From: Pseudomonadota bacterium
Lineage (GTDB): Bacteria; Desulfobacterota; Binatia; UBA9968
NCBI GenBank assembly: GCA_021324155.1
Contig: JAJPJQ010000004.1
Coordinates: 1 to 54,444, forward strand
Length of the DNA stretch: 54,444 bases
Reading direction: 5' to 3'
Shown here: one piece after another, positions 7,339 to 9,828 of the stretch
Numbering within the stretch: the stretch's first letter is position 1
Layout of the letters: each line of letters opens with the position of its first letter
Position numbers and translations under genes: made by a program
Notes under the pieces: generated by a model
What the model saw: the letters and a program-made list of their open reading frames with translations, nothing else
Database searches by the model: none
Told to the model about the DNA's origin: nothing

Positions 7339-7923
7339 CTAAGATGCCTTTGCGACTAATTTTTCGAGTGTTTCGTAGGGCTGCGCCCCAACCAAGCCGT
7401 AGCCGCCCATGACGAACGTAGGCACGGCATTTACGCCGACTTCTGCGGAGCGGCGCCAGTCCGCGTCGACCTCGTCTTTGAACGTGCGACTGTGGAGCGC
7501 GTCGAGCGCTTCGTCCCGCGGCAAGCCGATGCTCGCTGCGATATTGGCGAGCACGGCGGGATCGCCGATGTTCTTCGCGTCGACGAAAAACGCGCGGAAG
7601 ATTGGGTCGTGAATCTCGTAGCCTTTGCCCTTGCTCTCCGCCCATTTCGCGAGCTCTTGCGCGAGGCGGCTGTTGTAGGTCATCTCGCGGCCGACGGTGA
7701 ACGGCAGGCCTTCCTGATCCATCAGCGCCTTCATGCGCTCGTCGCGCGCGGGATTAGGGTCGCGCTTCTTTCCCTCCGCCGGCGTGTCCGGATGCAGCGG
7801 AAAATGCGTGAACCTCACGTCCACGCCGTGCTCGCTCTTTATCTTCTCAATACGCCCGGTACTGAGATAGCACCACGGTCAGACGTAGTCGGAGAAGACT
7901 TCGAAAATGAGAGGTTCCGGCAT
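7339..7923 (-). CDS. DsbA-family oxidoreductase, probable selenoprotein (UPWC active site)
   Basis: 194 residues when the in-frame TGA at 7881-7879 is read as selenocysteine (residue 15). The N-terminus MPEPLIFEVFSDYV-U-PWCYLS matches the thioredoxin-fold FrnE/YwbO-type DsbA family, where this position is the first Cys of CPWC. The reading frame continues in register on both sides of the TGA with family-like sequence (GRIEKIKSEHGVDVRF before, FTHFPLHPDTPAEG after), and the cis-Pro region GVNAVPTFVMGG is present. A hairpin fitting the bacterial SECIS follows the TGA. Alternatives are a nonsense mutation or a sequencing error. The ATG at 7923 has only a weak ribosome site. Starting at the inner GTG after the TGA would remove the active site. 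SelA/B/C/D must be elsewhere. Confidence 0.85.
7845..7881 (-). promoter_or_regulatory. bSECIS-like hairpin with the Sec UGA codon
   Basis: UGA is at 7881-7879. A 9-bp stem (UCUCAGUAC, 7867-7859, with GUAUUGAGA, 7853-7845, one G-U pair) closes a 5-nt loop CGGGC at 7858-7854. Twenty nt separate UGA from the loop, and the second loop base is G. This agrees with the usual bacterial SECIS rules as I recall them (loop about 16-37 nt from UGA, short loop, G in the first two loop bases). Confidence 0.75.
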
Positions 7924-8078
7924 GAATGTAGCTTACGACGGGAGATTGAAGGGGGCAAGGATCATTTTTAAGGGCGGAGGCGAATTAGGATCATGTTCAT
8001 TGCCAGATGCCTTGACCCATGGCCACTGGCCGGACTAGATTGTTCCGATTCAACGGGGGTCCGAAGAAGGAGGCTCTC

Positions 8079-8741
8079 ATGCGAGTCGTCTTCCTGCTCA
8101 TGATTCTGACGTCCGCCGCTGTCACGGAGATCGCTTGCGCCGCCGAAGCGCCGCCTCCGCCGCTTGGTTTTTTTGTCACGAGCGCCAAGCATAAGACGGG
8201 CAATCTCGGGGGACTAGCCGCCGCGGATAAGCTTTGCCAAAGCCTGGCCGCTACCGTCGGGCAAGGCGAGAGGACGTGGCGCGCGTACTTGAGCGCCGAG
8301 CGGGATCCGGAAAACAACAACCAACCGGCTCACGCGCGCGACCGGATCGGCCAAGGCCCGTGGTACAACGCAAACGGCATTATGGTCGGCAATAATTTGG
8401 CCGATCTGCACGAGCGCAGAGGCAACCCGATTCTGTTCGCCGTAGACGAGAAGGGTCAGCTTATTCCGGGCCGTTGGCCCGGCTCGCCGCGACCGACGGA
8501 GCACGACGTGCTCACTGGCTCGACGGCGGAAGGGCGATTGATGGCAGGAAAAACCTGCAACGACTGGACATCCGATTCCGCCGATCTAAAGGCCCAGATC
8601 GGTCACTGCGACGGGATCGGCCTCGGCGGCAATACGGTGGGAAGCTCCGCTTCGTGGAACTCGGCGCATGAGAGCCGGGGCTGCAACGACACCGCCCCGG
8701 GCGGCGGCGCCGGGCGCTTTTACTGCTTCGCGGCGAAATGA
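8079..8741 (+). CDS. Secreted lectin-like (C-type lectin/endostatin-like fold) protein
   Basis: 220 aa from the ATG at 8079, which has AGAAGGAGG upstream; the frame is open a little earlier but without a ribosome site. A signal peptide (MRVVFLLMILTSAAVTEIACA) is followed by a domain beginning FFVTSAKHKTGNLGGLAAADKLCQ, with TWRAYLSAE, TCNDWTSDS and C-terminal GGGAGRFYCFAAK. Paired cysteines and the WRAYLS / CNDWTS words fit bacterial extracellular lectin-like proteins of unknown ligand. Single gene, convergent with the decarboxylase operon. Confidence 0.65.
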   Translation: MRVVFLLMILTSAAVTEIACAAEAPPPPLGFFVTSAKHKTGNLGGLAAADKLCQSLAATVGQGERTWRAYLSAERDPENNNQPAHARDRIGQGPWYNANGIMVGNNLADLHERRGNPILFAVDEKGQLIPGRWPGSPRPTEHDVLTGSTAEGRLMAGKTCNDWTSDSADLKAQIGHCDGIGLGGNTVGSSASWNSAHESRGCNDTAPGGGAGRFYCFAAK

Positions 8742-8755
8742 GCCATCGAATAGGT

Positions 8756-9322
8756 TTACTTCGCCAGCGCCTTCTTGAACGCCTCTCTGAATTCCGTGTT
8801 ATACAGCCGGCGGAAATCCTCCGGATATTTTTCGCCCGGCTCCATCTTCAAATCGACGAGGATCGGTCCGTCTTCCATTAATAGGCCGCCGTCGAGCGCG
8901 CGCTCCCATTCTTCGAGCGTGGCGAATTCATGGCTCTTCTGGTAGCCGGCGGCGCGGGCGAGGCCGGCGAAGCTCACGCGCGGGCGGTTGGGAATCGACA
9001 CCGCGCCGTTGGTCTCGTACGTGCCGTTCTCGCACACGCAGTGGATGAAATTTTTCGGCGCGGCGTTGGCGATCGTTACGAGCGCGCCCAGATTCATCAG
9101 CAGGCTGCCGTCGCCGTCGAGGACGACGACGCGCCGGTCGGGGCGGCCGAGCGCGAGACCCAACGCGTGCGAAGAGCCCTGGCCCATCGCGCCCGTGAAC
9201 GTGTAATTCAATTCGCTGGGCGAAATGTGAATCCATTCCTGCGCCGCCATATAGACAGCGACGACGATCTCGTCTGTGCGCCGACGCGCGAGGGCTTTCA
9301 AGCAGGTATCGCGTTGCATCAT
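8756..9322 (-). CDS. ThDP-dependent decarboxylase, beta (C-terminal) subunit, ComE-like
   Basis: 188 aa, the pyrophosphate-binding half of a split thiamine-diphosphate enzyme. The ThDP motif GDGSLLMN...ENGTYETNG (GDG with a downstream Asn) is present, as is FTGAMGQGSSHALGLALG. It pairs with the next gene upstream like sulfopyruvate decarboxylase ComD/ComE or the phosphonopyruvate decarboxylase subunits. The start overlaps the alpha-subunit stop by 4 nt, so 1:1 expression is likely. The 2-oxo-acid substrate is not fixed by the sequence. Confidence 0.85.
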   Translation of the reverse strand: MMQRDTCLKALARRRTDEIVVAVYMAAQEWIHISPSELNYTFTGAMGQGSSHALGLALGRPDRRVVVLDGDGSLLMNLGALVTIANAAPKNFIHCVCENGTYETNGAVSIPNRPRVSFAGLARAAGYQKSHEFATLEEWERALDGGLLMEDGPILVDLKMEPGEKYPEDFRRLYNTEFREAFKKALAK

Positions 9323-9828
9323 GACGCCGGCTCCCTTCCGATCAGCATCACCGTGGGTGTCAAGTTTTCGTAGGCCCGCGCGATCGCCGGTACGATCTTT
9401 GCGGTATCGTCGGCGGTCTCGATCAATTGGTGCTCGACCTGCATCGCGTCGAGCACCGGTTCGACCACGCGAAGCCCGTAGCGCTTCGACTGCGTCGGCG
9501 CGACGCCGGGCTCTTTGCCGAGCAGGCCGACCATGAAGCAGACCGGATTCTTTCCCTCGACGGCGACGCCGCGCATCGCGTTAAGCGAATCGAGCAGGCC
9601 GGTGTATTGGATCAGCAGCAGCGCGCGATGGCCGGCGGCGTAGAGGCCGCTGCAGATCGATACGCCTTCGTCCTCTTTGCAGACTTGCACGACGCGGAAC
9701 TCCGGATCGGCGAGCATCGGCTTCAGAAGCCGCTCGCTCGTCACGCGATCGGGCAGCGCGACGATGAAGCGGATGCCGGCGCGCTTTATCTCGCGCATGA
9801 TGTCGGCGGCTTTGACGGCGGCATCCAT
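9319..9828 (-). CDS. ThDP-dependent decarboxylase, alpha (N-terminal) subunit, ComD-like
   Basis: 169 aa, the pyrimidine-binding half of the split ThDP enzyme. It has the activating-glutamate region (VVQVCKEDEGVSICSGLYAAG), IQYTGLLDSLNAMRGVAVEG and PTVMLIGREPAS, all usual for the ComD/phosphonopyruvate decarboxylase N-domain. The product with the beta subunit should be an aldehyde from a sulfo-, phosphono- or other 2-oxo acid. It lies 9 nt after a solute-binding protein gene and downstream of ubiD, hinting at a small catabolic operon. Confidence 0.85.
   Translation of the reverse strand: MDAAVKAADIMREIKRAGIRFIVALPDRVTSERLLKPMLADPEFRVVQVCKEDEGVSICSGLYAAGHRALLLIQYTGLLDSLNAMRGVAVEGKNPVCFMVGLLGKEPGVAPTQSKRYGLRVVEPVLDAMQVEHQLIETADDTAKIVPAIARAYENLTPTVMLIGREPAS

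Follow-up and report, generated by a model that had tools for sequence, protein, structure and literature searches.

Can a TGA codon that interrupts a bacterial gene, at exactly the position where an enzyme of the DsbA family would carry the first cysteine of its active site, be read as anything other than a stop? The question is posed by a gene on the minus strand of a 54,444-nt stretch of DNA (the whole of the stretch that was analysed, hereafter 'the window'), for which a first-pass annotation had proposed a DsbA-family selenoprotein served by a SECIS hairpin within its coding sequence. The answer given here draws on the reading frame, the distribution of the TGA among relatives, the RNA that follows it, the selenocysteine (Sec) machinery of the genome, and the family and fold of the protein.

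The reading frame and its interrupted active site

The gene, here termed Sec-FrnE, occupies 195 codons (its TAG stop counted in), and its principal features are as follows.

7339..7923, minus strand: coding sequence of Sec-FrnE, a predicted DsbA-family selenoprotein; ATG at 7923-7921, TAG stop at 7341-7339, 194 residues, Sec at residue 15
7879..7881, minus strand: in-frame UGA at residue 15, predicted Sec; first position of the U-P-W-C active site
7870..7881, minus strand: codons of the U-P-W-C active site, residues 15-18; invariant in alignments of 23 and 31 sequences
7417..7425, minus strand: Val167-Pro168-Thr169; invariant in the same two alignments

When TGA is translated as U, the product is continuous and contains that single TGA; it runs MPEPLIFEVFSDYV-U-PWCYLSTGRIEK and onward, with the UGA lying within SDYV-U-PWCY. 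An in-frame TAA is found four codons 5' of the ATG, with no start codon in between. In both alignments (in which Sec was entered as Cys) the invariant positions include the active site and V167-P168-T169, which we take to be the cis-Pro loop that faces the active site in the thioredoxin/DsbA fold. Cys18 is the sole cysteine of the translated protein besides Sec15, and inspection of the translation reveals no C-terminal CxxxxC motif.

The readthrough protein matches PF01323 (DSBA) over residues 8-190 at 4.4e-33, and the translation and this match agree with the earlier claim that the TGA replaces the first cysteine of the active site, with family sequence on both sides. The ordinary list of open reading frames, in turn, displays a GTG-started ORF of 161 amino acids (7824-7339) that is devoid of the active site, which is the truncation that had been predicted for annotation pipelines. 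Any annotation that reads the TGA purely as a stop would cut the gene to such a product, which makes it easy to overlook a redox enzyme that is widespread among uncultured bacteria.

The same ORF list is what would be seen if the TGA were an ordinary stop, in a pseudogene or through a sequencing or assembly error, so that the 161-residue ORF were a decayed or separately started fragment: a standard ORF caller reports a stop and a separate downstream ORF. The start region also speaks on that side. Within 20 nt upstream of the start, GGAG or GAGG is present in all 18 other orthologues that have a Met start in view, and neither occurs in the 20 nt before the ATG of the 7339-7923 copy (7924-7943, minus strand), which is unique in this respect among 19 Met-start orthologues, itself included. 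What counts against a decayed or miscalled gene is the behaviour of the TGA in other genomes.

Conservation of the TGA

A search of 58 genomes (the genome that holds the window and 57 relatives) included 35 of the same order, again counting its own. Orthologues containing exactly one TGA were recovered from 28 of these 35, in every case (28/28) with the TGA at the codon preceding PWC; the matches in two of them, L012 and L029, stop at residues 173 and 143. Six of the remaining seven same-order genomes yielded no orthologue, and the seventh (G034) yielded a C-terminal half only. In a separate collection of named genomes 548 relatives were confirmed, and among the best 80 of these 548 the active-site codon is TGA in 76, TGC in two and TGT in two, so that residue 15 or its equivalent is either the TGA codon or cysteine throughout. 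CPFC is found in two further homologues of the class (L030 and L031), which are more distant.

With 14 genomes common to both sets, 90 genome records carry the same TGA, which in practice excludes the base error that the first-pass annotation had named as one way in which its reading could fail. A second such way, the occurrence of TGA at random positions in homologues, is likewise contradicted, since a single codon accounts for the TGA in the 28 same-order copies, in the 76 among the best 80 of 548, and in 11 of the 11 weaker search matches that were listed with one TGA (L124-L134). These weaker matches represent other DsbA-like groups in the class, sorted by eye into UPFCW, UPWCFPAA/UPWCYPAA, UPWCYN and UPWCYV types.

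Furthermore, a second in-frame stop is absent from all 76 named-genome Sec copies and from all 28 same-order copies, and the protein is conserved past the TGA, with 22 orthologues being 49-72% identical to the 7339-7923 copy. These observations argue directly against a pseudogene or a sequencing error, as do the covarying stem and the Sec machinery described below; for the family as a whole that explanation is practically refuted, and we regard it as exceedingly improbable for the locus.

A candidate SECIS element within the coding sequence

A bacterial selenoprotein gene would be expected to carry its SECIS shortly after the UGA, and a hairpin had been proposed there.

7845..7867, minus strand: predicted bacterial SECIS hairpin; 9-bp stem in this copy, of which the inner 7 bp are conserved; loop CGGGC at 7854-7858

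The stem (UCUCAGUAC/GUAUUGAGA) is formed by the pairing of 7867-7859 with 7853-7845; it begins 11 nt from the UGA, its loop lies 20 nt from the UGA, and in isolation it folds at -9.4 kcal/mol. The bSECIS rules set out in the legend to Fig. 2 of PMC13188914 comprise an apical loop of 3-9 nt, an upper stem of 4-16 bp, a G as the first or second base of the loop (with G or U as the usual next base), a distance of 16-37 nt between UGA and loop, and a minimum free energy no higher than -7.5 kcal/mol. The hairpin agrees with all of them, having a 5-nt loop, a 9-bp stem, G at loop position 2, a 20-nt spacing and the energy just given.

Among the 85 distinct sequences represented in the 90 TGA records, loop position 2 is G in all 85 and is followed by G in 41 and by U in 44; the loop is CGGGC in 41/85, CGUGC in 42/85, and something else in two. 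Each of the inner seven stem pairs persists in 74 to 85 of the 85 sequences, while the outer two persist in only 46 and 53, which indicates a working stem of about 7 bp. Thus the first-pass description survives in its 9-bp stem, CGGGC loop, 11- and 20-nt spacings, loop G and accordance with the SECIS rules, but two of its nine pairs, the outermost, are poorly kept across the family. When nucleotides 13-38 are folded, the -7.5 kcal/mol rule is passed by 56 of the 85 distinct sequences, the other 29 being weaker.

Folding energy by itself does not set the region apart (z -0.67), and in a search of the window against Rfam nothing reached the gathering score, with a single chance-level match in the hairpin region. 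The pattern of substitution is more informative. Stem cells are paired at 88.8%, against 86.1% in shuffled alignments (0/500 as high) and 28-50% when the partner strand is slid; compensatory cells, in which both sides have changed, number 27 against a shuffled mean of 4.9 (0/500 as high) and 0 to 4 on sliding; and the covariation score is 0.117 against 0.060 (again 0/500 as high). Two coarser counts do not exceed the shuffles, namely the number of pairs changed on both sides (3 against 2.4, with 243/500 shuffles as high) and the number of further pair types (3 against 5.3, with all 500 as high). The changes themselves are concrete: 10 sequences have G-C for A-U at pair 19-33, and 15 have C-G for U-A at pair 21-31. 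The former change is seen both in a Binatia-type clade and in L073, a sequence labelled Alphaproteobacteria whose sister (L095) keeps A-U, and the occurrence of the change in two places implies that it arose at least twice on the tree.

A second trace of RNA-level constraint is found in codon usage. Across the 88 of the 90 sequences used, the in-stem codons for L20 (CTC, 86/86), T22 (ACC, 86/88) and R24 (CGT, 88/88) are 'frozen', whereas 48 conserved residues outside the stem average 0.74 in normalised codon entropy. Freezing does not extend to the E26 codon, in the outer stem, and it is equally strong at S85 (AGC), outside the stem; with only four in-stem codons the comparison gives a Mann-Whitney p of 0.036, so codon freezing lends support to a SECIS but does not amount to proof.

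A competing structure is formed when the UGA itself is allowed to pair. RNAalifold favours another hairpin, one that takes in the UGA, with 98.4% of its cells paired and zero compensatory changes, and when the 7339-7923 copy is folded alone this hairpin is better than the SECIS hairpin by 0.6 kcal/mol; across the family it is the better of the two in 22/85 sequences. With the UGA bases left out of the fold, to mimic their being held by the ribosome, the SECIS hairpin becomes the core of the minimum-energy structure of the 7339-7923 copy, and in folds of nucleotides 13-38 its loop-closing pair is present in the minimum structure of 83/85 sequences. The UGA-pairing hairpin was rejected as the SECIS for want of compensatory change and of a G in its apical loop in the 7339-7923 copy, and also because it presumably could not form while the UGA sits in the ribosome; it is retained as a rival structure for the free RNA.

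Selenocysteine machinery in the genome and its relatives

The absence of Sec machinery was the third finding that had been named as fatal to the selenoprotein reading. The genome that holds the window (4.80 Mb, 53 contigs, 98% complete) contains all four components, each above its curated cut-off.

C16:71316-72650: selA, 602.9 bits (cut-off 267.9)
C16:69325-71211: selB, 412.3 bits (cut-off 242.25)
C16:68287-69216, minus strand: selD, 391.6 bits (cut-off 125)
C16:257-347: tRNA-Sec, 74.8 bits (gathering score 47)

The three protein genes are clustered on a single contig (C16), which carries the tRNA-Sec as well. The SelD of this genome (L122) holds an in-frame TGA of its own (AAAGUAAKLG), and is to judge from its sequence probably a selenoprotein itself.

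Across the 28 genomes that possess a TGA-containing orthologue, 26 have selA above cut-off, 25 have selB and 20 have tRNA-Sec, and 27 have either selA or tRNA-Sec. One genome in the set (G017) has two tRNA-Sec genes (C84:293-383 and C261:6755-6845, both at 74.2 bits), perhaps on a duplicated contig. The search for selD covered the window's own genome and three others, the latter being bins of 210 to 640 contigs: G025 lacks selB and selD above cut-off (selD scoring 102.8 bits against 125) and has selA and tRNA-Sec; G011 lacks selA, selB and selD above cut-off and has tRNA-Sec; and in G005, a bin of 240 contigs rated 100% complete, selA, selB, selD and tRNA-Sec all fall below cut-off. Because selA, selB and selD are adjacent in the genome of the window, contigs that escaped binning may explain these gaps.

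The case of G005, with its TGA gene and no sel gene over cut-off, is nonetheless the sort of observation that would be made if the UGA were read through otherwise than as Sec, by a near-cognate tRNA or under a reassigned code, and the assignment of Sec to residue 15 is itself an argument from sequence. Several facts tell against such decoding. TGA is the commonest stop among the 48 long, mostly non-overlapping ORFs called mechanically in the window (21/48), so that the genetic code does not look reassigned; the UGA coincides with the position of a redox cysteine; SelA, SelB, SelD and tRNA-Sec are all present; and the frozen codons and covarying stem are traces of the kind that a SECIS would leave. 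Readthrough of this other sort is, in our judgement, barely credible.

We conclude that this is a genuine selenoprotein gene, with the UGA read as Sec by means of a SECIS in an FrnE-type disulfide reductase, at a probability of roughly 0.96. The core of the first-pass annotation has accordingly held, none of the three tests named against it having told in the other direction.

Family, fold and proposed function

The solved structure nearest in sequence is that of Deinococcus radiodurans FrnE (1.3e-20). An AlphaFold2 model of the protein has a mean pLDDT of 91.8 and a pTM of 0.88, and in a Foldseek search the five top PDB matches are all D. radiodurans FrnE structures (TM 0.85-0.86, E 1.7e-13). 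The product thus displays the features of the FrnE subfamily, a DSBA domain with a CxxC-type site and a best match to FrnE structures, and its sequence points to an FrnE-type protein of DsbA fold whose sole redox pair would be Sec15-Cys18 (U-P-W-C). The C-terminal CxxxxC is not a defining motif of that subfamily, inasmuch as PMC8945050 describes some FrnE proteins without it. Since the first beta strand of the model starts as early as residue 6, there is no space before it for a signal peptide; the protein therefore looks cytoplasmic, as FrnE is predicted to be (PMC8945050).

In the mechanism that we propose, ribosomes reaching the UGA at codon 15 would not always stop, and selenocysteine would be inserted, the hairpin 11 nt downstream serving to hold SelB-GTP-Sec-tRNA(Sec). 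The selenolate of Sec15 would then be the attacking residue, most likely on disulfides of substrate proteins or of small thiols; Cys18 would resolve the mixed selenosulfide; and the resulting Sec-Cys bond would be re-reduced by an outside thiol system, such as thioredoxin or a small thiol. Since there is no cysteine beyond Cys18, regeneration would have to come from outside, unlike the situation in D. radiodurans FrnE. By analogy with FrnE, a cytoplasmic role as reductase or isomerase is the best guess, and a reductase rather than an oxidase direction seems the likelier.

The DsbA fold is also common to glutathione-dependent enzymes of the GST-kappa and 2-hydroxychromene-2-carboxylate (HCCA) isomerase type, which appear at Foldseek ranks 12-19 and 23, and a Sec protein that acted mainly as such an isomerase or transferase, perhaps in aromatic breakdown, would sit comfortably with the scattered catabolic-looking neighbours of the gene (luciferase-like proteins, for example, at 8/80 loci, named by eye). 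Kappa GST and HCCA isomerase, however, have a lone serine in place of a UPWC-type motif. The present protein retains UPWC, and its nearest relatives in both sequence and structure are FrnE disulfide oxidoreductases, so that an isomerase or transferase of this type is an improbable description of it.

Genomic surroundings and the mla operon

Downstream of Sec-FrnE, on the same strand and after a gap of 50 nt, Pfam identifies mlaE, an ABC ATPase, mlaD and an auxiliary lipoprotein, an arrangement from which the first-pass annotation had suggested a link between the gene and envelope redox. If the gene served the envelope together with this Mla lipid transport operon, the association might be expected to recur. 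MlaE, MlaF, MlaD and the auxiliary protein were therefore used as tblastn queries against 107 other loci, of which 25 of 27 same-order and 71 of 80 named-genome loci (96 loci, with 14 genomes in both sets) had at least 1 kb of sequence available downstream. MlaE adjoins Sec-FrnE at none of these 96 loci (no genome of the same genus being among those searched), and neither MlaD nor the auxiliary gene lies beside it at any of the 107. The sole MlaE matches are those in L092 and L106, both on the opposite strand and at a distance of over 5 kb; matches to MlaF at six loci, at 25-37% identity, look like generic ABC ATPases, the one that is close (L091) again being on the opposite strand. A predicted strand that begins at residue 6, with no sign of export in the model, also speaks against an envelope protein. 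The proposed link thus finds no echo at the other loci searched, and a shared envelope function is very unlikely.

More generally, clustering of 505 crude ORFs from the surroundings of the 80 named-genome loci brought out no conserved neighbourhood, no cluster being present at more than 8/80 loci. Upstream of Sec-FrnE in the window, at 8756-9828 on the minus strand, a gene with a TPP-enzyme C-terminal domain by Pfam is directly preceded by a second gene without a Pfam match, possibly its N-terminal partner to judge by eye; the same pair is found upstream of the orthologue L045/L012 (one genome, 78% identity). Divergent from Sec-FrnE lies an ORF (8019-8741, plus strand) with a sub-threshold match to DUF1554 (27.1 against 27.5 bits).

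A proposed spread clade of Sec-FrnE and its cysteine members

A tree of 88 rows (82 Sec, four Cys and two Cys outgroup sequences; the bootstrap had not settled) places the four ingroup Cys rows at two separate positions. L080 falls beside L057, deep among Sec rows, with support of 98/80, which makes one change from Sec to Cys well supported. L090, L110 and L118 form a clade (100/99) at a poorly supported fork (91/90); the best tree has a second Sec-to-Cys change there, which the weakness of the fork keeps from being established, and the clade could instead branch near the base with cysteine as its ancestral state. The labels Rokubacteria, Acidobacteria, Deltaproteobacteria and Proteobacteria occur intermixed among the rows, and this mixing suggests transfer of Sec-FrnE between lineages, although the labels are those of metagenome bins. 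Two bins titled Bordetella parapertussis and Klebsiella pneumoniae (L070 and L112) sit among uncultured lineages, and their names are probably mislabels.

All four Cys forms lack the peptide LST(G/V)RIE that follows the active site of the Sec forms, having instead LASARVAR, LGDSRVKK or (twice) LGDNRVKR, as would be expected if the RNA were what holds the peptide in place. From this we draw a tentative proposal, with the odds leaning slightly against it: that there exists a distinct, horizontally spread clade of Sec-FrnE, present in genomes of Binatia type and of Rokubacteria, SAR324 and Alpha-, Beta- and Gammaproteobacteria, and that in this clade it is the SECIS rather than the protein that determines which peptide follows the active site. 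In such a clade LST(G/V)RIE would be largely fixed at the codon level, changes to LVTGRVE would match paired changes in the RNA, and the Cys members would have dropped the peptide. If this is true, many uncultured bacteria would possess in Sec-FrnE a cytoplasmic disulfide reductase that is selenium-based and as yet unstudied. The Sec and Cys versions gathered here offer a clean case for measuring the constraint that a SECIS inside a coding sequence places on protein evolution, and for seeing how that constraint goes once Sec is absent.

Comparison with known systems

COG2761 is the group that we take to be that of FrnE. DsbA-like selenoproteins with a UxxC motif were placed in COG2761 in the Sargasso Sea set of 2005 (PMC1088965), and DsbA-like selenoproteins were listed again in 2006 (PMC1794560), in 2022 (PMC9312934) and in Table 1 of a 2026 paper, as 'DsbA-like protein form 1' with PF01323 and UxxC (PMC13188914). 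With that UxxC group and the named Sec-FrnE proteins discussed below already in print, Sec in the FrnE family is known, and the present gene adds one well-supported, fairly ordinary member; the point of most interest is the widely spread clade with its nearly fixed SECIS. A limited full-text search turned up no description of this clade or of its presence in Binatia-type genomes. Among the matches listed for selenoproteins together with Binatota, Binatia or Rokubacteria (a weak screen, by titles and term counts), none dealt with both except a paper on phylum KSB1 that contains both kinds of word, and the main text of PMC12013277 has no mention of DsbA or FrnE.

Two NCBIfam models, NF041057 and TIGR00411, match below their cut-offs, and neither was accepted as an identification. 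NF041057, the Rcas_1661-family thioredoxin-like (seleno)lipoprotein, is the sole selenoprotein model matched (2.8e-10, residues 84-191) and is the DsbG-like selenoprotein of PMC13188914; it was rejected on score (40.2 bits against a cut-off of 190) and because it describes a lipoprotein. TIGR00411 was rejected on score.

Eukaryotic selenoprotein genes carry their SECIS in the 3' UTR, a difference from the gene described here. Sec-containing FrnE proteins have nonetheless been named in eukaryotes, as 'FrnE (DsbA)' in SelenoDB 2.0 in 2013 (PMC3965025) and in the green algae Mamiellophyceae and M. viride in 2019 (PMC6627142); their likeness to the present gene is taken from the name (FrnE/DsbA selenoprotein).

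The bacterial DsbA-like selenoproteins of COG2761/PF01323 are closer in kind: they share the Pfam family, a UxxC motif with Sec in first position, a SECIS with a G in its loop, and common Cys homologues (PMC1088965, PMC13188914). Those papers give them as a family, and the comparison is by description; what distinguishes the present gene is its UPWC motif, its Binatia-type genome and its particular, nearly fixed SECIS. Among proteins of solved structure, Streptomyces coelicolor SCO1869 (PDB 3gl5), a DsbA-type oxidoreductase, is the next match after FrnE (4.6e-16, TM 0.84) and is longer, with 239 residues in the PDB chain. The best match in both sequence and fold is D. radiodurans FrnE itself (DR_0659; PDB 5cnw, 5cp1 and 5xwh), whose CPWC aligns with UPWC and which is predicted to be cytoplasmic (PMC8945050), as the model suggests for Sec-FrnE. 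The two differ in that the Deinococcus enzyme has cysteine in place of Sec and a C-terminal CxxxxC that is proposed to aid its regeneration, whereas the present protein has, besides its predicted Sec, Cys18 only.
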